Source of the DNA: Chalara sp. BL73
Lineage: Eukaryota; Ascomycota; Leotiomycetes; Helotiales
Length of the DNA: 64,000 bases
Reading direction: 5' to 3'
NCBI GenBank assembly: GCA_918026815.1
Contig: CAKJVC010000011.1
Location: forward strand, 186,001 to 250,000
In this document: in pieces, positions 6,901 to 64,000 of the stretch
Position numbering within the stretch: the first letter of the stretch is position 1
Layout of the letters: each line of letters starts with the position of its first letter
Position numbers and translations under genes: made by a program
Notes under the pieces: model-generated
Databases searched by the model: none
Seen by the model: only the letters and a program-made list of their open reading frames with translations
What the model was told of the DNA's origin: nothing

Positions 6901-8468
6901 CGTGGGTCGACCTGGCGAATAGCCTTCTGTATTGACTCTTCGAAGGTTCTACCAATGGCCATCACTTCACCGACAGATTTCATTGCGCTCCCAATATCAC
7001 GCTTGACATGCTGAAACTTTGACAGGTCCCATCTTGGAATTTTGGTCACAACATAATCTAGCGAAGGCTCAAAGTTTGCCGTAGTAGTCTTCGTAACTGC
7101 ATTCGGTAGCTCTGGAAGAGTGTGACCAAGTCCAATCTTAGCGGCAGTATACGCAAGTGGATATCCCGTGGCTTTGGAGGCAAGAGCAGACGATCGAGAG
7201 AGCCGAGCATTGACTTCGATGACCCTATAATCAAGTCCATCTGGTTGAAGGGCGTATTGTACATTGCACTCGCCCACAACCCCCAAATGACGAATGATCT
7301 TAATGGCAGCAGAACGAAGCATGTGATACTCCTCATCGCTCAAAGTTTGACTAGGTGCAACAACAATAGAATCACCAGTGTGCGTACCAAGGGGGTCAAA
7401 GTTTTCCATGTTGCAAACCGTAATACAGTTGTTAGCTGCATCTCGGACGACCTCATACTCCACCTCTTTCCAACCCTTGAGAGATTTCTCAACTAAGATC
7501 TGAGGAGATAAGGTTAGAGATCTTGCAGACATATTGCGGAGCTCTTCTTCGTTGTTTGCAAATCCAGATCCAAGTCCCCCAAGAGCGTAGGCCGCACGAA
7601 CAATAATTGGATACCCAATGTCCTTTGCGGCTGCCAGGGCATCGTCGACAGTGCCCACAGCAATTGATTGGGCAATTGGGATATTGATTTCATTAAGGGC
7701 TTTGGCGAATAGATCCCTGTCTTCACTGGTCTCCAGTGTCTTGATGCTTGTACCAAGAACCTTCACACCATATCTCTCGAAAATGCCCATACGTTCCATT
7801 TGCACACCAAGATTCAAGGCTGTCTGCCCACCAAATGTAAGAAAGATGCCATCTGGTCGTTCCCGCTCGATTACGTATGTGACATATTCTGGGGTGACTG
7901 GTAGATAATAGACTTCATCAGAGAGAACGTGGGCGGTTTGAATCGTTGCGATGTTGGGGTTGATAAGGACAGACGCAACGCCTGCTTCTTTCAGGGCTTT
8001 CAAAGCTTGCGATCCTGGAGAGGAAATATGTCAGCAATATCCTCATTCATTTCACGACTAACTGAATTGCCTTTCGACCGCCTTTACGTCTGGAGCTTTT
8101 TCAAATGACTCATTTCTTAAAATATGGGAGGACTGACCAGAGTAATCGAATTCTCCTGCCTGTCCAATGCTTAATCCACCACTGCCAATGACCAGGACTT
8201 TCTTGACGTCTACAGGATTTGCGGCTCCCTTGATAACTCCGCTCTCCAGATACGCCTTCGCATTTGGAGCGGTTTGTGTTTGATCCCTTCGAGCAACATA
8301 GCTTGAAAAGCATCTAGAATACTTTGCGGTCTTGATAGAGGATATCTGGCTCTTCGAAGAAAGGCACTTCGGGGAGTATCGGGTTGCGAAAGCTCTGGTA
8401 GGAGCTTGTGTTCGGACATGTCGTAACAGGGAGCTTGATCGAGCTCCCAGGCGAGAAGAAAGTGCCAT
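3910..8468 (-). CDS. CPA2: Carbamoyl-phosphate synthase, arginine-specific, large subunit (mitochondrial)
   Basis: This enzyme makes carbamoyl phosphate from glutamine-derived ammonia, bicarbonate and two ATP for arginine synthesis. The proposed exons are 8468-8138, 8014-6333, 5450-4074 and 4017-3910, which sum to 1165 codons. The first 60 or so residues are Ser/Arg-rich, Asp/Glu-poor and look like a mitochondrial targeting peptide. The [21 protein letters not shown] motif then opens the first CPSase half. The second half begins near [18 protein letters not shown] at about residue 645. Introns 1 and 3 are ordinary. The junction after MIN (residue 671) is not: the 882-nt gap has a GTAAGT donor but ends CTTAACG with no AG, although YNPETFSTD follows in perfect register. 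Either the acceptor is damaged or mis-sequenced, or splicing is non-canonical. The targeting peptide and single function indicate the arginine enzyme rather than the URA2 fusion. Confidence 0.88.
5451..6332 (-). other. 882-nt intervening sequence in CPA2 lacking an AG acceptor
   Basis: This interrupts CPA2 exactly between codons 671 and 672. On the minus strand it starts GTAAGT and ends with branch-like TTGCTAAC followed by TTGCTTAACG, with no AG. The 6-mer TACGTT occurs at both edges (5449-5454 and 6330-6335), which could be a target duplication or chance. Near the 3' end, ACAATGGTTAG occurs twice (about 5491-5517). Inside is a same-strand ATG-started ORF of 112 codons (5891-5553) with a hydrophobic signal-like N-terminus and a half C2H2-like tail. 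I recognise no family. The length is far above the other introns in this window (44-123 nt). Confidence 0.6.
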
Positions 8469-9348
8469 TGTAGAGATTGATATAGTCAATTAGCCTTACG
8501 AAGCTTCGCACAGCCTACTGCAAATTTTAACACAGAAGTTTTCCTCGCAAGAGTACAGTGTTTGGGTTTTGTTGTTGAATGAGTCTTTCACCGCTGAACC
8601 ACAACGAAAAAGATTGCTGGAAGAGTTTGTTTGTGAAAAGAGTTAGTTAGTAACCCTATTCCTGTAACTTCGAAGGCTCAAAGTCCCTGAGCATTGTGTA
8701 GTGCAAGAGCTATAGTATCTAACACTTGCGGAAATGTGAATCACTTGGGATGATGGAAAGGAGAGTTTGTTGAACCACCCCCGCTAGACAAAAAAAAAAG
8801 ACAGGGGTTCCATACCGTAGCTAACTCATCGCCTGCGTAGCTTCAAAAAGACAGGATTTCATTCGACAACAAATTTTTCGATCATATGCAGAGGCCTGCA
8901 GGAAAAAATTTGTTCCTACTATACATTTTATACTACTGTGTATAAACTTCGTATGAAAAGCTGTGCAGAGGCTGATTCTTACTATGAGAGTTGAGGTTTT
9001 CATCGAGTTGATGTTGGCCTTGGCATTATCAGTCATATCAAAAGTGTGTAAGAGGTAGATAAGGTACACTAGAAGCATATTCGGGGCTACAAAACATTCG
9101 TCGTTGTACTTTGCTATAAGCAGGCAAGACGCGAAAGACTTCTTTGATATAGACATAACTGAAAATTGGGTAGTGGGAGGAAGCAAAAGACTCGTCTCTC
9201 TGCTCTCCGAGATCGGATCTCCATAATTGGAGGTTATCTTCACTGTACTTTTTCCTTATATACTCCTTACAATGCCGTGCCATGCTCAAACCAAACCGAG
9301 AGACGCCGGAATAGGATTTCTATAGAATTCGCAGTGACATCTGGCCAA
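8469..9348. other. Intergenic region upstream of CPA2
   Basis: These 880 bp lie between the CPA2 start and the FRS2 stop. They should contain the CPA2 promoter and FRS2 3' UTR. A 140-codon minus-strand frame at 8821-9243 shows no conserved features, so I do not call it a gene. Confidence 0.4.
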
Positions 9349-47946: not shown

Positions 47947-48409
47947 CTATGTCTTGTCGTGTACCTCAAAGTCGTGGCCCTTGCGTTCCTGGGACTTGAA
48001 CGCATACTTCTCCGTTAATGCAGGCGGTGCCTCGTCGCGCTTGCGGTCATGGACCTCGAAGCCATAGATCTGGGCGAAAGCGTCGTCGCCTTGTATTTCT
48101 TGTGTTTCAAACCCATATATCTCGGTCGCGGCTTTGCCACGCTTACGATCATGGGAATCAACATTATATATTTGGACGGATGCATCACCGCGTTTGGCAG
48201 CTCTTGGAACCTAAATATTTGAGCTTATCATTAAAATTATTTGAAATTCGCGACTAGTACCTCAATAGCGACATCTAAGGTTTCTTTGTTAATAGCAGAT
48301 TCAAGAAAGGATGAGTGGTTGCGAACTCACGTTTTGAAGCTGGGAGAGGAGCACCGGCTACGAATGGTGCGATAATCGCCATGATGGTGAGAAGTCTAGA
48401 TGAATGCAT
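47947..48409 (-). CDS. Putative dikaritin-type RiPP precursor with dibasic-flanked Tyr repeats
   Basis: This is a predicted secreted precursor of 121 residues. The exons are 48409-48331, 48283-48261 (a 23-nt microexon) and 48210-47947, in phase. The signal peptide is residues 1-20 (MHSSRLLTIMAIIAPFVAGA). From residue 35 there are four imperfect repeats of 16-19 residues (42-58, 59-74, 75-92, 93-111) plus a partial one. Each carries a Tyr-containing core (IYNVDSHD, IYGFETQE, IYGFEVHD, KYAFKSQE), usually followed by RKR or RK. Dibasic Kex2 sites lie at about 40-41, 56-58, 90-92 and 110-111. UstA-type precursors have this layout. A divergent UstYa/DUF3328 gene 758 bp away supports the call. The second repeat has lost its dibasic site (EIQ). 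No function is demonstrated, and an alternative is an ordinary Kex2-processed peptide family such as repellents or pheromone-like precursors. Confidence 0.75.
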
Positions 48410-49167
48410 GATGAGAGGTTCGGGTGTTTACAGCCTCGACGAAATCGGGATTCGTTTGGGTTATTGAAATGGAGGCGAGAGGCGCTTCCTTTATGAGAGA
48501 TTCTCATAAACTTGGCTGATCACTGGTCGCATGTCATGTAGTATGTGGTGCATGGGGCTCAGATCGAGCTTCTCTTCATCTATCATGCGAACGAGCAGTC
48601 CTACCAGAGGAAGGAAACATAGGTGGTAGTCTTTCAGATGCGGCACAACCGTATCCCAGAGAGAACCCAGTATATATTGGGCGAAGTGACAATAAAAGGT
48701 GCTATATTTGCTACGGGAACAGCTGGACTAAGGCTCAGCTTAAAGTTTCTAATATTATCTCAACTGATGAACAGAGGATATATTTTGGTCACATACTATC
48801 ATGTGGCCCTGAAAGAGTGTAGGGGTAAACCTAGTGACATTATTGAAGATCCAGAAGGAAGAGATGTGAGGGATCTAGCTACTTATTTATACCCTTCCTC
48901 CATGCGCAATCAATGCTTAAAACCATCTGACCACTACTTAAATCGACGTTTTCAGCCATACCCGCACTAAACCTAGATGAAGTGTTGATGTCACTCTACC
49001 CCAAAACATCACCAGAGAACTAGGTTTTGATCATTAGACCTAATCCACCTAACATCAATGCCTTTTACAAAGCATAATTCCTGAGGAATCGCCTTTCACA
49101 AAAAGAGCTACAATGCGAATACTACGGACCCCATCCTGCGTGTCACTCTCCAGTTCAGCTTCAGAAT
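48410..49167. promoter_or_regulatory. Divergent promoter of the RiPP precursor and UstYa genes
   Basis: This 758-bp region separates divergent starts, which would allow co-regulation. It contains CGGCACAACCG at 48641-48651, a CGG-N5-CCG inverted pair typical of Zn2Cys6 factor sites. A 115-codon plus-strand frame (48623-48970) within it has no recognisable features. Confidence 0.5.
48641..48651. promoter_or_regulatory. CGG-N5-CCG candidate zinc-cluster binding site
   Basis: The exact inverted triplets CGG and CCG are separated by CACAA, near the middle of the divergent promoter. A single such site can arise by chance. Confidence 0.3.
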
Positions 49168-50237
49168 ATGGAGGATGAAGAGGAACTCTCCTTCCTCACA
49201 CCGCCGAATCGCCAATCCCAAAAAAAAGGCTCTAGCATTATAATCTATGCAACTATCTTTAACCTTATAATCCTCACATTCTCTTTGCTACTCGTTCACT
49301 CTTCCCATCATCATGCCGGCATGAACTCTCTGCTCAAAGCCACGTCATTTTACTGTGAGATCTAGACATTCTCATTGCTTTTAAAACATGGAGTAATTTG
49401 TAGAACCCAGCACCAATTCTCGACAGGCTTGAAATCAAAACCACCGTCAAACAAATGAACGCCACCCTCTTTCCATCTTCCCATCCATCAATCGCCCGGC
49501 AGAAACCCAATCCAGATGCTGATGCTATCTGGAGAGAGTTTGAGCTTACACGTGCCATTGCCATTTCTGGGGAGGACGTGAGGAGACTGGGGAAAGTATG
49601 TACTTGTCTTGACGCGGAATATACTTGAGCAATTACGATGCTTGACTTTATTGTGGTAGTGAGATGCTGACGCAGAGTACTTAGGACCCAGAAACGGCGG
49701 CGAAATTTGAGGATGCCTACTGGCACTTTGGCGACGACGCATATATCGGACAACTTGATGTATTCCATCAACTACACTGTTTGAACGCATTGCGCAAATT
49801 GTTATATCCGGCATACTATAACAATACACCGGTAAGTAGTTCTATGGACACATCACGATCAAAGACTCTCGTCAAGGATCGACCCGTTCTCCCATACATT
49901 CTGAAAGTCAATCTACTTACTCCTAACTCCAAAGCAGCGGCATCCAGAGTTATATTACGCGCACTACGACCACTGCGTCGATGTCCTATATCAAAATATA
50001 ATTTGTACGACAAACACTGACCTCAACACAATGAACTGGATGGAAACACAACACCACCCCTTTCCCGATTTCAGCATCAATCACCAATGTCGAGACTTTG
50101 GCGCCTTGGTTGCATGGAGGAAGGAGAACAGCGTCGACATGGAGAAGTGGCATGCAATGCAAAAACCGGAGGGTGTGAAGGAGGTGCCGGTGATGAAGGA
50201 GTATTGGGAGATATTTGGAGATGCGATGGGTGAGTAG
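49168..50237 (+). CDS. UstYa family (DUF3328) oxidative cyclase-like protein
   Basis: UstYa proteins perform oxidative macrocyclisation of fungal RiPP core peptides. The exons are 49168-49354, 49411-49595, 49685-49831 and 49938-50237, giving 272 residues. The first acceptor is AACCCAG at 49410, because the earlier TAG would create a stop. Residues 1-22 are cytosolic and acidic, with one membrane anchor at about 23-43 (IIIYATIFNLIILTFSLLLVH). The luminal domain has both family HxxHC motifs: FHQLHCLNALRK at about residue 151 and HYDHCVDVL at about 182. A TNTDLNTMNWM stretch is followed by the final INHQCRDF. Alternative use of AG at 49934 would add one Gln. The divergent RiPP-like precursor points to its substrate. 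Only one UstYa is seen, whereas characterised dikaritin clusters usually have two or more. Confidence 0.88.
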
Positions 50238-50855: not shown

Positions 50856-52302
50856 CTACCTCAGAATCTCAGGTATCTCAGGTAGTGACCTTTCGCTCGG
50901 ATTCTCAGTCGCAGGACTTAGCGGACTGACCTGGCCGCTCTCCCCTGACGGGGTAGGCAAGGCTTCCATCTCGGTCACACTGTTCCTTCCGCTGCTACTC
51001 GTCTCATTTAGCAAGATCTGGGTCGAGTCTATCTTTGCACTCGGCACAACTGGATTTGAGGCTAGCTCTGTGCTCGGTTTGACTTGTCTTGAATCTATCT
51101 CCACTTTGGGGCGGATTTGATATGAATCTATTTCCGCTTTCGGTAGAATTTGACGTGAGTCTATCTCTGCATTCGTCACAACCCGAGTCAAGTCTATCTC
51201 TTCCACAGCCCCTGTTTTTGCACCAAGCGAACCATGGGGTTCCGTCCTGATGGCTGAGCTGTCTTTGACACCCCTGCGTGATAACTGAAATAGGTTCAGG
51301 CCTTTAGTGTCGGGATGGTGAGACTCGGTGAGTTCTGCTCTGGGCTTTTTTGGTGCATTCATAGATGAATATTGCGGAAGAGTCTGATTGAGTTTCCGGC
51401 GTCTTCGACATAGATAGATCAGAGTTGCGGATATAATTAGAGCTGCAGCGCCTCCTAATGATATGCCTGATATTTTTTCTGGAGAAAGAGATGGTGTTCT
51501 CGTCGCTGGAGGCGTGGTGGCAGCTGGCTGAGAGGGCAAAGCTTGCCCAGGAAATATTTCCTCGCCTGACGTTATCGCATGTTCTTTCAAGTGCTCGATT
51601 GTCTCTCCAGAGACCTATGACAATCGGCACCTCTATTAGCTGAGTCCCGCAGATCAGAGGGTTGAATTTGGGAGTATATACCGCATTAATGCTTCCAACT
51701 GCACCTCCCTCGCTGCAAGCTCCTGGAGCCGTGCAGTAGAAATAGATGGGGTCGGTGTCATTCACCATTACTTGAAATTTCCGTGATGGAAGATGGGCAT
51801 CTGCGAAGAAATAAAATCCAGACCAGAATCCTTGCTTCTTATTGCTGGATATCTCGATTGGAACACATGGGCGTGCAAATGTTGATCGAGCTACACCAAT
51901 ACTCAGATCAAACTCTGTGAATAGGTCAGTTTCTGGACCAAAGCCCGCTGCCCTGTCCATACCTATGACGTCTCCGACATCTGCTACCGTAGTTTCTGGT
52001 TCAAGCCAGGAGCCGTCCTAAACTTCAATTAGTAACGACCTTGCGAACAAGGATGTCATGGCTACCGTTCCACCCATGATTGTATGAGTAGGGACTAGAG
52101 AATCGGAAGAACGAGGAGAACCTGAAGCACCTGAAGGATTATTGGTAAACTCTGCAGGTGGTAGATTAGTAATAGATGATCCCAATCTTCCGAGGCTCGA
52201 AGTCGGTGATTTCGTGGCTGTAGATTTCCCGAAATATAACGAGGATTCTGCAAGAATGGAAGGCAAGATAGCCAGGGCTGCTAAAAGAACTACGATAGAC
52301 AT
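50856..52302 (-). CDS. Membrane-anchored cupredoxin-like serine-rich protein
   Basis: The exons are 52302-52066, 52017-51963, 51914-51682 and 51614-50856, giving 427 residues with all junctions in phase. The signal peptide is about residues 1-19 (MSIVVLLAALAILPSILAE), followed by a Ser/Thr linker. The cupredoxin-like domain runs from THTIMGG (about 72) to AVGSIN (about 174). A Thr/Pro stem, a single TM segment (about 224-243, ISGISLGGAAALIISATLIY), an RRRRK stop-transfer and a long cytosolic tail with six 11-residue repeats come next. Many fungal extracellular serine-rich proteins share this domain. The usual copper His residues are missing here (GVA instead of NHSV/T, GAC instead of GHC), while Cys 114, 158 and 164 remain, so a structural or sensor role is likelier than redox chemistry. 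Confidence 0.75.
51006..51203 (-). repeat. Six tandem 33-nt (11-residue) coding repeats
   Basis: Within the cytosolic tail of the cupredoxin-like protein, residues 313-378 form six units with consensus xEIDSRQILPK. The clearest are AEIDSRQILPK, AEIDSYQIRPK and VEIDSRQVKPS. The first and fifth units are the most diverged. Confidence 0.85.
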
Positions 52303-57729: not shown

Positions 57730-58150
57730 CTTTAAGTACTTTGTTTTGAAGTACTTGTATCGCATATAACAATATCGACAACTAGTTCAACTTCACGTAT
57801 TTTTAAAAGCTCAGCGCTATTTAAAGCTTTATTACTAATTTTACAGCTTGTTTACATGCTACAACAAGTCAAACTATTTAAAGTTTAAAAACCTAAAACT
57901 TTCGATAGCAGTCGACAGCACTTTCGCTTATATGTTTTACAGTGCGAGATTTACATTCGCATAAACCCGTTATTTTTCGAAAGCCAAAAGCAAATAGTTT
58001 TGTAAGCAGTATTTTTTTTAACAAAAATTACTTACAACTAGATTTTTACTTATTTAAAAAACTACTTCGCGTATTTACATAACAAAAAAAAAAATTGAAA
58101 CTAATTTTATTTTCAACAGCTATAAAAAATACGTTAGCTAACTTACTCGC

Positions 58151-58510
58151 ATGTTCAAAAACATAAATAAAGAAATAAAAGCCGAGCGAAACATACAAGT
58201 CTGCAAACAACTTACTAATATAACGAAATACACGAAACGTTTTAAGTTGCTAGCAAAAAAAGTAAACTGGAATAATAAAGCTTTTACTGCGCTTTACTAC
58301 AAAAGTCTTAAAAAGAATGTTAAAAATAATATTGTTCGAAAAAAACGACCAACTAACTTTATTGCTATAAAAAACAAAGCAATTAAAATTAACACTAGAC
58401 TATATAAAAAACGCATAGAAAAAAAAAAACAGTATTTTTTAAAGTTCAGCAAAAAGCAATATTTTCAGAAACTCTGCTACTACTTACTTATAAAACTAAA
58501 CGCGTTCTAA
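58151..58510 (+). pseudogene. Gag capsid fragment of gypsy element A
   Basis: This is an open 119-codon stretch with the recognisable chromovirus gag pattern: AERNIQVCKQ, a KRFKLLAKKVNWNNKAFTAL helix block and the NRAIKI-like KNKAIKINTRLY. Gly and Glu positions are replaced mostly by Lys or Asn, as expected from G-to-A changes. The original start is not preserved clearly. Confidence 0.6.
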
Positions 58511-60056
58511 AGCAAACTTAAACAAAAAAATAGTTTATTTAAAAAAAAAATGCAAAAACGACGCGACAAGAAATTATGTTTTAAATATAGCCTCCCGGGC
58601 TATATAGCTAGCTCGCATCGACAAAAACGACAACTTTAAAAAAAAAAAAAGCAACTAAACATTACAGGCAAAAAAAAATACAACAAAACACTTAGCAAAG
58701 TTTTGGCCGTGTTTAAAGCCAAAAAACCAGAAACGCCAGAAAAAAAACTAAAACGACAACGAATTTATACTTAACATAACGCTACGTGCATTAAGTGTAA
58801 AATGAAATGCAGTGCGGCCTAGAAAAACAAATGCTTCAGTTGTTATTTCGACAAAAATAACAAATAGAAAAAAACAAGCAAAACTATAAAAAAAATTTTA
58901 TTCTAAATAAATAAAGCAGCTATCGAATCAGAATCTAATAAAAATTAGAATGTAAGCTTAAAGCTAAACCGGCTTTTAAGAATTTCCGAATTAAAAAAAC
59001 GGATTTTGCATAAGTTACTATTTAAAGTAAATCAAAACGACTTTAAAGCACTTTCTAAAAAATATATAGTCAATAACACTCTAGCAAAAAAAATCACTTT
59101 TTAGCGGCGACTAAAAATTATCAATAATGAAATCTTTAAAAAAAGAATTAAACTAAAAGAAATAAAAGCAAAACGAAAAGCTAAAAATTGCAGTAAATAA
59201 AAAGCAATACTCGCAATAAGCTTAGTCGACGAATCTGAAAAAAACAATACAGCACACTATCGACACTTACAATATAGCACACTTTATTAAATTACATACT
59301 ACACAAACTACTGCATATATTATTATAACGCTAAACAAGCAAAGTAGTACTTAAAGCGAAAGCGAATAATATACTTCGAAAATAACAAAAAAAAAAAACC
59401 AAAAAAAAGAACTTTGCGCTTTCGGAAAAAAAAAACAATTATTCGTTAAAGTTAAACTAAAAACGTACAGCATAACAGCTATAATAAACTTTGAAACTAT
59501 TAAAAACTTTGTATTTCTAAATATAGTAAAACATTTCGAGATATTTACACAAGTTAAAACTAACTTATACACTTTTACAGTAACTAACAACACGAATACA
59601 TCGTACCGAAATAAACTCGTAAATATCGAAACATTAAAGCTTAAAATAAACACAAGTAACTACATAAAATAATTACAATTAAACGTTACTCGAATAAAGC
59701 AGCATAAAATCATTTTAGAAATGCTATAGATTATAAAATATAATTCAACGATCAATTAGCAAACAAAACAACTCGTTTTTAACAAATGCTAATGTGCAGT
59801 CAAGCTTAAACTATTAATTATTAAGCTAACAAAAAGCAAAAACAAAAAAGCACAACTAAAAAAACTCGACTAGAGCCCAAAAGAAGTTTGCGCTATTTCT
59901 AAAAAAAAGCCAAATTATTTAAACGAAGAATTACATACTAAAAAAGTACTTAAAAAGTATAAAAAGTTCGAAAAGCTGTTTTCGGAAAAACAAAGACTCG
60001 CGGCTCTACCGGAACACAAGCTATAAAATCATAAAATACTATTAATTAAAAAAGCA

Positions 60057-60965
60057 GTGCTTTTTAAAAAACCAATTTACTTATTATCCGAAAATAACCT
60101 AAAAACGCTTAAAAAGTTTATCGATTCAAACTTGAAAAAAAAAATAATTAAAAAGTTAATATTACTAGCAAAAAGCTCGGTGTTATTTGTGCTTAAACCG
60201 GACAAAACTAAAAAAATGTATATTGATTATCGAAAGTTGAACAATATAACAATTAAAAATCGCTATACACTACTAAAAGCAAACGAAATAAAAGATCGCT
60301 TGCAAAAAGCCAAAATATTTATATAGCTAAACTTACGAAATGCGTACTATAGTGTACGAATCAAAAAAAGCGAAAAATAAAAAACAGCTTTCGGAACCCG
60401 GTACAAACATTATAAGTTTACAGCTATGCCGATAAAACTTACGAATGCTTTCGCTACTTTTCAAAAACTAATTAACAATATTTTTATGCTATTTTTAGAC
60501 ATTACTTGTATATGCTATTTAAATAACATCTTGATTTATTTTAGCCGGAAAAAAAATTATAAAAATAATGTTAAAGCAGTACTATACGCGTTGTATAATG
60601 TTAACATAAAACTTAAGTTATCGAAGTGTCGATTTAAAGTCAAAAAAGTTATATTTTTAAAATATGTGATTTTCACAGAAAAAATCAAAATAAACTTAGC
60701 AAAAATTAAACTCATTTTAGAATAAAATGCTTTAATATACGTTAAAAACGTGCAGTCATTTGTAAGATTCGCTAATTTCTATCGGAGGTTTATTAAAAAA
60801 TATTCGGAATTAGCTATTCTATTAACTCGACTTACTCGGAAAAACGTGGTTTTTAAATAAACAGCAAAAGCACAAAAAGCGTTCGACAAGTTAAAACAGG
60901 CTTTTACTACCGCTTTTGTACTTTTCGCTTTCGATGCAAAAAAAGAAATTAAAGTAAAAACAAAT
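60057..60965 (+). pseudogene. Reverse transcriptase fragment of gypsy element A
   Basis: It is readable in one frame with stops: SSVLFVLKPDKTKKMYIDYRKLNN, then AFGTRYKHYKFTAMP, LTNAFATFQKLIN, CYLNNILIYF, SKCRFKVKKVIFL and [20 protein letters not shown]. It ends at AFDKLKQAFTTAFVLFAFD, the RT/RNase H junction. The catalytic Asp pair is Asn-Asn. The frame is cut at 60966 by LTR B. Confidence 0.85.
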
Positions 60966-60966
60966 G

Positions 60967-61419
60967 TGTAACGTACGGGGTAGCCTTAGGCCTAGGTAGC
61001 TGGGCTTGGGGCTCGTTGGTTGGTATGGTATATATGAAATAGACTAGACACTGCTTCTTACTGAAGAGTGAAACGTTACAAGTATAACAAAAACTATATT
61101 GCTAAACTATAATAAAGTTTGAGCACGAAGCTTTTAAGCTATAAAACTACGACTACTTATATACTATAGTTAAGTTGAAGTTTATTGGAGTTTTTGGAGT
61201 TTATATAAACTTTTAAAACTTTTTTAGACTTTATTACATGACACAGTCGCGGTTTCCAAAAGTTAATAAGCTGTCTGCTTTTTTACTTACTTAAAGTTTT
61301 AAAACACTGGCTAATTTTAAGATTTACATTTCTAAAATTTTTATTGGTTTCGGAACGCTAAAACGTTCTAAGGCTTTTTTTTTAAGACTTTAGCAAGTTT
61401 TAAAATTCGGTTCGTGACA
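60967..61419 (-). repeat. Gypsy element B, 3' LTR
   Basis: On the minus strand this begins TGTCACG and ends CGTTACA, near-perfect inverted ends matching the TGTYACG pattern of LTR A. A purine-rich tract directly precedes it on the minus strand. It interrupts element A at AAATG, a possible 5-bp target site. The element-outward half is GC-ordinary and the inner half AT-rich. A TATATAAG box is present at about 61150. Confidence 0.7.
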
Positions 61420-61439
61420 CTATTCCTTTTTCGTTTTAG
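61420..61439 (-). other. Polypurine tract of element B
   Basis: On the minus strand, a run of A and G with only two or three pyrimidines ends exactly at the TGTCACG start of the LTR. This fixes the element's orientation as minus. Confidence 0.55.
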
Positions 61440-61553
61440 CGTGCTTTTACGCTTAAATACAAGTAAAGAAATCTCGCGCGAGAAGTATAGCTTTTTTCTT
61501 TTTTTACTATGCTATTTTAGCGCACGAGCAGAATCAAAAATTGTAATAAAAGT

Positions 61554-62072
61554 TTGTTTAAAAAAAAAATTCGTAAAAAATTCGAGCTGGCTAATTTTAT
61601 CGAGTTTGTCGGCAAAAAGATGTTTTCGTGTACTCGATGTAAAAAAAAGGATTTGAAATGTGTTGCTGATCCAAAAAAAAAGCGCTTAGCGAAGTGTTTA
61701 GAATGTATACAAACGAAGTGTTTTTATAACATAAGCGTTTTTTTGTTCGAACGTTAGAACTTCGAAGTTTTGCGCTTAGCTAACTGAATGTTTTTCGATC
61801 GTTAGCTGAAAAAGCTGGACAATAAAAAGAAAAAAGCTTCGGCTTAAGCCTAAAAAGCTATAGCTAAATTGGCTTGTTTTCGGAAACAAAAAGCGTTTAT
61901 TAAAAGTCGTCGAAAAGAAATAGCTCGTCGTGGTTTTCGCTATTTGAAAAAGCTAAATGCTGCCGAAAAAAAAAAAAAAAAAAGACCGAAGCAAAAAAAA
62001 ACGAAAAGCAAAAGCAAGCCGTCGCTGCTAGCGTTGTTTTTGCTGCTAGCGAATTTTATAACGATTTTCTAG
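61554..62072 (+). pseudogene. Antisense ORF in element B with Zn2Cys6-like cysteine pattern
   Basis: One plus-strand frame of about 173 codons, with a few stops, lies opposite to the pol genes between pol and the 3' LTR. It contains C-x2-C-x6-C-x11-C-x2-C-x4-C (about 61629-61728), close to the fungal Zn2Cys6 spacing. A Lys/Arg-rich helical part follows (FRKQKAFIKSRRKEIARRGF, about 61874-61935). I recall similar proteins scattered in fungal genomes near retroelements. Function unknown. Confidence 0.5.
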
Positions 62073-62079
62073 CAGGATT

Positions 62080-64000
62080 TTCTAGTTTTTTAAACTTTTT
62101 CTAAGCAAATCAAGATTTTGTTAATAGAACTTTGTTAACAATTCAAAGTAATTAAAGTTGCTTTTAGGTTTTTATGTGTTTTTTGAATATAAGTAGTTTT
62201 TTTATTTAACGAAGTACTTGATTTGTGTTTTAACGTATTTGCAGTTCAGAATTTGTTTTATTTTATATTCGGCGTTTAAGTTAACTAAAAGAATTTCGAT
62301 TTTTAATACTAGTAAAACGCTCGGTAGTGCTTTTTTAAGCAAAAATACGTAAAATACTAAATAAATATTTATGTTTTTAAGTAAATCCAATTTATAGTTC
62401 AAAAGTTTTTTGACTTTTTTGATTTTGTACAGTTTTAATTTTTTGTAGTCTAGTTTGTTACTTGGTTTTTTAGTATTAATGTTTTTTTTAAACAAGTAAA
62501 CTTTTTTTTTTTTTTCGAAAGTAAGCTTTTGACTACGTTTTTTATTGTAGTAGTAAGCGTTTTTTTCTGCGACAAATTGCAGGTTTTCTGCTAGTTTTTT
62601 GTGCAAGTTTTTAATGTTTCGAACTTGGATTCGAGTATACTTGTTGTTAATGTCCGTAATTCCTGGTTTTTGTATATTACTAGCTTGTAGCCGTAATTAG
62701 CGAAAAATAGTAAAACTAGTGTTGTTTTTGTAGTCGAACTGTTGTATGCGAATTGTGCGAACGGTAATAGTTGGACTTAATTGTTTTGTTTGTAATTAAT
62801 ATAGCATTTCAAATATGTTTTTACTATTTAGTTTATTTTTTCGGTTTAGCTATTTGTTTGCAAGTAGAAAAACGTAAATAGCTTTTTTTTGGCGCTTAGT
62901 TGCGCTATAAAGCTTGTTTAGAACTTAAATGTAAAAAGCTTGTTTTTGTCCGATATAATTTTTTTTAGTAACTTATGCGAAACAATTACTTTCCTGAAAA
63001 AAGTGTGTACGAAGTTTTTTGCCGTGTTTAACTCGCAGTAAAAAACAAGTATTATATACTTCGTCAGTTTTTCTACTATAACTAAAATAAAATCGTATTT
63101 TACTTTTGTTACTAGGTTTTTAAACTTTGAAAGTTTAACGATAAAGTTTTAAAATATTGATTTTTATAGTATAAGCAGTATCGAGATTATTTGTATTTGC
63201 TTATAAAAAACTCGGCGTAAAACTTTGTTTTTAATGCAAGTATCGCAACCGTTAACTACCGTTTTTACCGTGCTTTTTAGTTTCGGGCACCAGAAAGTTT
63301 TCGCAATTTTTTTATACGTTTTTCTGATTTTTTAGTGTTTGTGTACAAAAAAGCTGTATTATTCTTTAACGAAACTTTTTTTGATCTTTTTAAGTAAATA
63401 CAGCTTTTCTGTTTTTTTTTGTCGAAAAACTTCGTTTTTTTCTTCGTTTTTTTTAAAAGCTTTTTTTAACATTTGTTGTACGCCCAGATTTTTTTTAGCG
63501 CCGTTCTTGAATCGTACTAGCTATAGCTTAGTAAAGTTATGTTTTATTGTAGCTGCGATTTTTTTAATGTTTAAAACAAAGTTTTTGTTTTTGAGTTTTT
63601 TAAACAAAACTGTTTTTTAATATACTTTAAAGTTTTCGTATTTTAGTTTTTTGCTAAGCGCGTTAGTTTTCGCGTTGTTTGTTTTGCTAACGTGCTTAAT
63701 AATTAAGTCGAATTCTGCTAGTTCTTTAGTTTATTTAGCTAGCTTTCGATTGTTTAAGATTTTAGTAGTAGTAAAAGTTCAAAAATTTATATAGTCAGTA
63801 TAAATAGTAACTGTGAACTTTGCTTTTTGTAAATAAATACGTTAATGTTTTAATGCTTCTATAATTGCAAGCAGTTTTTTTTTATAGATATTGTAGTTTT
63901 GTTCTGTTAACAACATTGTTTTTAAAAAGTAAACAACGAAATGCAATTTGTTATTGTCGTTTTCTTGAAAGTGTACTGCTTTTATAGTTGTATTTGAAGT
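62080..64000 (-). pseudogene. Pol fragment of element B: RNase H, integrase, chromodomain
   Basis: In minus-strand reading, RNase H is recognised at about 63990-63640 (EQNYNIYKKKLLAIIEALKH, TVTIYTDY, ELAEFDLIIKHV). The H2C2 integrase zinc region follows at about 63340-63190 (KIAKTFWCPKL, VVNGCDTCIKNK), then the core start DFILVIVEKLTKY. The late integrase region is at about 62606-62400 (AENLQFVAEKNAYYYNKKRS). The chromodomain lies at about 62290-62150 (NAEYKIKQILNCKYVKTQIKYFVK, then the NYLYSKNT stretch). Stops and Gly/Glu-to-Lys changes are frequent. Confidence 0.85.

Follow-up and report, generated by a model that had tools for sequence, protein, structure and literature searches.

The window, that is, the whole 64-kb stretch of DNA analysed here (part of contig C8 of a genome of 58.7 Mb in 199 contigs), carried a two-gene locus that we consider likely to be an asperipin-like minimal dikaritin/KEP RiPP locus, from which a small number of Tyr-crosslinked peptides would be expected. 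The copper-enzyme neighbour of the precursor probably crosslinks the precursor tyrosines into cyclic peptides. A preliminary description had proposed a minimal dikaritin-like pair at 47947-50237. Our gene models coincided exactly with these coordinates and bore out the head-to-head pairing of a repeat precursor (minus strand) and a DUF3328 gene (plus strand). The strong DUF3328 profile match and the real precursor architecture supported the dikaritin-like reading, which was also backed by Bisporella, where the sole precursor relative and a 95% identical UstYa were found on equally long contigs. The precursor gene (48409-47947, minus; three exons, 118 aa) and the UstYa gene (49168-50237, plus; four exons, 272 aa) were divergent, with 758 bp between their starts (Table 1); the exon joins of both genes were read from splice sites in the DNA. 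The 758-bp region and seven sister intergenic regions had no common k-mer above shuffles. Gene structures, domain, motifs, repetition, two-species conservation, and divergent layout were seen directly in the sequences. One enzyme and one short precursor would form about the smallest possible pathway of this type, and two genes suffice for testing it.

Table 1. Features of the precursor/UstYa locus, in window positions.
Feature	Positions	Strand	Basis
Precursor exon 3: Tyr-bearing repeats and KR sites	47947..48210	-	repetition scan, P0001 alignment
Precursor exon 2: 14-nt micro-exon, VAIE	48261..48274	-	VAIEV conserved in P0001
Precursor exon 1: start codon and signal peptide (MHSSRLLTIMAIIAPFVAGAPLPAS...)	48331..48409	-	P0001 start aligns
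Intergenic region, possible shared promoter	48410..49167	.	between two divergent start codons
UstYa exon 1: N-terminal tail and transmembrane helix	49168..49354	+	helix in P0002 model
UstYa exon 2	49411..49595	+	splice-site reading
UstYa exon 3: first HxxHC motif, HQLHC	49685..49831	+	motif at 152
UstYa exon 4: second HxxHC motif, HYDHC, and conserved cysteines	49938..50237	+	motif at 182

The precursor gene had two GT..AG introns of 56 nt and 50 nt. Judged by hydropathy, residues 6-20 were hydrophobic, as in an ER signal peptide. The mature part read, in order, IYNVDSHD-RKR, IYGFETQE, IYGFEVHD-RKR, KYAFKSQE-RKG, and a partial HDFEVHD, the first four being Tyr-bearing repeats. The internal repetition gave a summed score of 205, compared with a shuffle mean of 73 and a maximum of 125, and none of the 5,000 shuffles attained either repetition score. 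These results confirmed the signal peptide and the four imperfect Tyr repeats noted previously, with self-similarity above every shuffle. The release of the repeats at KR sites, also noted previously, held in part: three sites were present (37, 54, and 88), so that not all neighbouring repeats were separated by one. No dibasic site occurred at the junction of repeats 2 and 3 (QEIQGDD), and repeat 4 ended in RKG, followed by the partial fifth repeat. With only three KR sites, repeats 2 and 3 would therefore leave as a single 31-aa piece; the pieces after KR were 14, 31, and 29 aa long, and the 29-mer would become 17 + 10 aa if RK counts. The KEP rule, as given in the available part of PMC7329392, calls for at least three tandem repeats of at least 8 aa between KR/KK/RK/RR sites; measured against it, the precursor repeats were imperfect, and two lay within one piece.

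A cruder scan rule, which asked for two KR sites and two recurring 4-mers, picked out 11 of the 983 segments in the window; this was too many, and a self-similarity scan was therefore used instead. Two of the 112 segments tested in the window exceeded z = 6, namely the precursor and an EIDS-repeat membrane protein. At 50856-51590 (minus), a protein that has one TM segment and imperfect EIDSRQ.. repeats in its tail matched no Pfam family. A search of the genome for a second precursor copy found none. The identity of the precursor as an alpha-pheromone was rejected because no XA/XP step directly followed the KR sites.

The 272-aa protein matched the DUF3328/UstYa profile PF11807 with 188.3 bits (cut-off 25; E = 2.3e-55). 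The single TM anchor and two HxxHC motifs described earlier were found as a hydrophobic stretch at residues 24-42, HQLHC at 152, and HYDHC at 182, so that the protein, with a profile score above the cut-off, both motifs, and an N-terminal anchor, belongs to the UstYa/DUF3328 family. Across 33 UstYa homologues, W103, H152, H155, C156, R161, and C197 were invariant, and H183, H186, and C187 were nearly so; the numbering is that of P0002, the 95% identical ortholog of Bisporella sp. PMI_857. The AlphaFold2 model of P0002 (pLDDT 84.2, pTM 0.73) placed a TM helix at residues 21-48 and the HxxHC motifs in helices 149-163 and 177-198, and CctR has the same arrangement of HxxHC helices behind a TM helix (PMC12435403). 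CctR binds two coppers per monomer; its motif alanine mutants lose all activity, and much is lost in W108A (PMC12435403). The asperipin cyclase AprY is copper- and O2-dependent according to PMC12435403. Searches of the window UstYa against the PDB gave no match at E <= 1 by sequence and 0/83 matches at E <= 0.001 by fold. The copper site therefore rests on analogy with these enzymes, by which the window UstYa may catalyse a binuclear copper, O2-dependent reaction.

In the pathway that we infer, which extends from secretion and Kex2 cleavage through copper binding, cyclisation, and ring position to a biological role, the signal peptide would direct the precursor into the secretory pathway. Kex2 would cut the three KR sites, yielding GDASVQIYNVDSHD, a 31-mer that holds two of the Tyr repeats, and a 29-mer from the C-terminus. 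By analogy with CctR, the single UstYa would be held in the membrane by its anchor, its helical domain lying in the secretory-pathway lumen. As in CctR, AprY, and UstYa, it would bind two copper ions via HxxHC...HxxHC and, with O2, would join a Tyr phenol to a nearby side-chain carbon, with a loss of 2 H per link. Every Tyr repeat of the precursor read Y-x-[F/V]; this spacing equals that of ustiloxin YAIG and phomopsin YVIP, and a ring from Tyr-O to C-beta(i+2) is therefore our preferred guess. The computed [M+H]+ values (linear / minus 2 H) were 1519.6659 / 1517.6503 for GDASVQIYNVDSHD, 1923.9334 / 1921.9178 for DEAPPALTEKYAFKSQE, 962.4214 / 960.4058 for IYNVDSHD, 986.4466 / 984.4309 for IYGFETQE, 979.4520 / 977.4363 for IYGFEVHD, and 1000.5098 / 998.4942 for KYAFKSQE.

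Members of the DUF3328 family also act as hydroxylases, halogenases, and desaturases (PMC12435403, and the available parts of PMC12048977 and PMC10512285). CctR is a hydroxylase and ApnU a halogenase (PMC12435403), and the phomopsin UstYa homologues desaturate too, as stated in the part of PMC10512285 at hand. Such precedents would allow the UstYa to modify the window peptide by hydroxylation, desaturation, or halogenation of the cores without cyclising it, which we consider unlikely. Against this, all four repeats retained Tyr and were hydrophobic at i+2, and AprY has been proposed as a single-enzyme cyclase (PMC6514808, available part). We prefer Tyr crosslinking by the window UstYa.

The precursor search covered a database of 5.8 billion proteins and required shared 5-residue words, so that strongly diverged precursors could escape it. 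The preliminary description had named no known counterpart for the cores, and within the protein-database searches run the sole relative was P0001 from Bisporella sp. PMI_857 (144 aa, 71%; 1 match among 18 candidates). A two-sequence precursor profile revealed no relative beyond P0001 (1 match among 1,096 candidates). With gaps excluded, the window precursor and P0001 were 86% identical. P0001 and P0002 are each on a contig of 2,026,417 bases; because these contigs are equally long, the two genes very likely share one Bisporella scaffold. The closest proteins found for the window genes were those of Bisporella sp. PMI_857. The annotated P0001 supported precursor exon 3 and intron 2, and its model keeps 19 residues (57 nt) where the 56-nt intron 1 of the window is spliced. 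Since the window frame needs splicing and 57 nt are neutral either way, the simpler view is that intron 1 is present in both species.

UstYa orthologs were found in Cadophora, Rhexocercosporidium, Mollisiaceae, Drepanopeziza, and Hyaloscypha. In a 46-row tree, the window UstYa grouped with P0002 (support 100/100), and the fork joining this pair to those five taxa was weak (84/75). No precursor relative outside Bisporella, including the genera with UstYa orthologs, was present among the 1,096 candidates, and the evidence for a conserved pair therefore stops at two genomes. The precursor family, seen here in these two genomes, is new, and its Bisporella member may figure in KEP survey tables. 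Bisporella was not mentioned among the matches listed in our literature search, which covered few subscription papers.

Six pairwise comparisons of the four 8-codon cores yielded a summed pS of 0.70 and pN of 0.33; these values are rough, being based on eight codons and on pairs that are partly saturated, with pS above 1 in two of the six. As far as such values go, pS exceeded pN as expected under constraint on core residues, amino acids having changed less than silent sites. The Tyr codon was TAT in 4/4 cores, and the core copies look old rather than recently homogenised. Between the window precursor and P0001, changes occurred at 2/37 core, 0/11 KR/RK site, 3/20 signal, and 12/50 other post-signal positions. 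A Fisher test of core against other post-signal positions gave p = 0.036, where the core boundaries were chosen by us and one or two residues beside intron 1 hinge on the gene model. The result is suggestive of cores that are more conserved than other post-signal positions between the two species.

These comparisons also bear on whether the locus is decaying, as an old KEP with degenerate repeats and Kex2 sites and with little or no mature product. The self-similarity z of the window precursor was 16.9, compared with 16.4-201 in sister precursors, its repeats thus differing more than those of most sisters. The Kex2 site between repeats 2 and 3 was missing in both the window precursor and P0001, and the fifth repeat of the window was 7 residues short relative to that of P0001 (SVQIHEFEVHD). 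However, the frame, splice sites, signal peptide, three KR sites, and UstYa were all intact; the UstYa was 95% identical to its Bisporella ortholog; and core changes were rarer than changes at other post-signal positions. Decay therefore appeared improbable, and we retained the reading of a locus that makes crosslinked peptides.

PF11807 had 89 exon-level matches in the genome. The survey covered 20 regions, each 8-10 kb long and located at UstYa matches that were for the most part among the stronger; the self-similarity scan found a KR-repeat candidate in 10 of these regions and none in the other 10. As L023 repeats L022 and L028 repeats L021, eight distinct loci were obtained (L020, L021, L022, L030, L032, L036, L037, and L038). 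Their repeats included YDNPKTATLPY, TNIYPSVSFLG, SWYYD, ATYLLSDGE, YPISALII, and the Tyr-free AEPAASWAAA. All except the convergent L020 were divergent (7/8), with a spacing of about 790-1541 bp by rough gene models and start codons, the UstYa start of L036 being represented by an internal peptide. With the window included, 8/9 distinct loci were divergent (binomial p = 1e-4 against 1 in 4 by chance), a value that assumes independent loci, which shared descent may break. That the precursor gives a normal linear secreted peptide, like a pheromone or an effector, with the UstYa as a chance neighbour appeared very improbable: although about 78% of the KEPs surveyed in 2020 lack a DUF3328 neighbour (PMC7329392, available part) and no precursor relative from species of the other UstYa orthologs was among the 1,096 candidates, divergent pairing recurred in 8/9 loci, the Bisporella relatives of both genes lie on equally long contigs, and the KR sites are followed by GD, GK, and DE, with no XA/XP dipeptide, unlike alpha-pheromones.

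The sister loci resembled the window in the divergent KR-repeat/UstYa layout and differed from it in having mostly near-identical repeats and other cores. The extent of core divergence at the window locus and the frequency of the head-to-head layout are unusual. No description of the recurrent divergent KEP/UstYa layout was found in the literature searched, which covered few subscription papers; a match for DUF3328 with 'divergently' was discarded, as the word was applied there to aflatoxin genes. We tentatively propose, at less than even confidence, that head-to-head KEP/UstYa pairs might be a recurrent Helotiales cassette that is respecified by core rewriting, of which the window copy no longer homogenises and encodes different Y-x-[F/V] cores, with one copper enzyme and no tyrosinase. 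The divergent layout (8/9 loci) offers a simple rule for locating precursors too imperfect for repeat-based mining.

Several sister regions had features of their own. The L030 and L036 regions carried further UstYa matches. L035/L036 (C184:99000-118999) was a fuller dikaritin-like cluster, in which a precursor with SWYYDKKR repeats was accompanied by several UstYa matches and, at two positions, by tyrosinase matches. The L030 precursor (C97:17000-26999; 8302-8985, plus) contained eight nearly identical TNIYPSVSFLGDPEAEKVKR-type repeats and adjoined two UstYa matches on the opposite strand. In L038 (C86:1254500-1264499; 2166-2921, minus), a YGSYTNYPPPPP-unit repeat protein was divergent from a UstYa, and its repeats seemed to be split by introns. 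L021/L028 and L022/L023 were near-identical UstYa/precursor loci on the contig pairs C86/C60 and C41/C107, as if they were alternative haplotypes or duplicated contig ends; the UstYa frame of L028 breaks where that of L021 stays open.

The window has 75 ORFs with a length of 110 aa or more, and the Pfam scan covered 30 of them; 13 of the 30 matched a family and 17 did not. The families were NPL4, carbamoyl-phosphate synthase (two ORFs), class II Phe-type tRNA synthetase, BRR2-type helicase, DUF1746, RNA 3'-terminal cyclase, a weak 7-TM match, alternative oxidase, DUF3074, THOC5 (two ORFs), and formyltransferase, which are housekeeping or unrelated genes. Neither tyrosinase, methyltransferase, peptidase, nor transporter was among the matches of these 30 ORFs, and neither tyrosinase nor a second UstYa was among the matches listed for contig C8, in agreement with the earlier statement that no tyrosinase, methyltransferase, or second UstYa can be seen in the flanking genes. 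Tailoring genes, if any, would be sited elsewhere. Among the matches listed, C184 and C82 were the only contigs on which tyrosinase (PF00264) and UstYa matches were separated by about 2 kb or less; the genome therefore has fuller clusters besides minimal ones. At 58001-64000, the G+C content was 26-30%, compared with 40-49% in the rest of the window; this AT-rich stretch is perhaps transposon-derived.

Two definitions of a dikaritin are quoted in the available part of PMC12048977. By that of 2021, in which DUF3328 is the class-defining enzyme beside the precursor gene, the window locus is a dikaritin locus. The original Ding definition lists a tyrosinase, a methyltransferase, multiple DUF3328, and a peptidase or transporter; none of these was among the matches near the window locus (30/75 ORFs scanned and C8 matches listed), and, from what is available of the sources, the four-gene asperipin-2a cluster likewise falls outside this definition.

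The asperipin-2a locus of Aspergillus flavus (aprA, aprY, aprT, and aprR) resembles the window locus in its Kex2-repeat precursor, single UstYa homologue, and lack of tyrosinase; the available parts of PMC6514808 and PMC7329392 describe four genes with this content. Unlike asperipin-2a, the window locus had no reductase or transporter among nearby Pfam matches, and its cores are imperfect, unlike FYYTGY. Ustiloxin and phomopsin share the signal peptide, the KR-released Tyr cores, and a Tyr with a hydrophobic residue at i+2 (YAIG and YVIP, compared with YNV, YGF, and YAF), but their pathways depend on a tyrosinase together with two or five DUF3328 proteins, and such extra genes were not found near the window locus. 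As in the epichloecyclins (gigA), whose imperfect repeats yield several different cyclic peptides per precursor (PMC9233826, available part), the window repeats are imperfect; the protein-database searches returned no relation between the two precursors. In the accessible text of PMC7329392 (Umemura 2020), 1,758 of 7,878 KEPs have DUF3328 among the 15 closest genes, the DUF3328 count peaks at the adjacent position, and Tyr is present in 65.6% of the repeats of DUF3328-neighboured KEPs, compared with 38.2% of others. These 1,758 compare with only five dikaritins reported by 2022, according to the part of a review at hand (PMC10512285). The window locus likewise has its DUF3328 gene directly next door, the commonest position, and its repeats are borderline for the rule of at least three repeats. 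Given the precedents of Umemura 2020, asperipin-2a, and the epichloecyclins, the window locus therefore fits a known kind.
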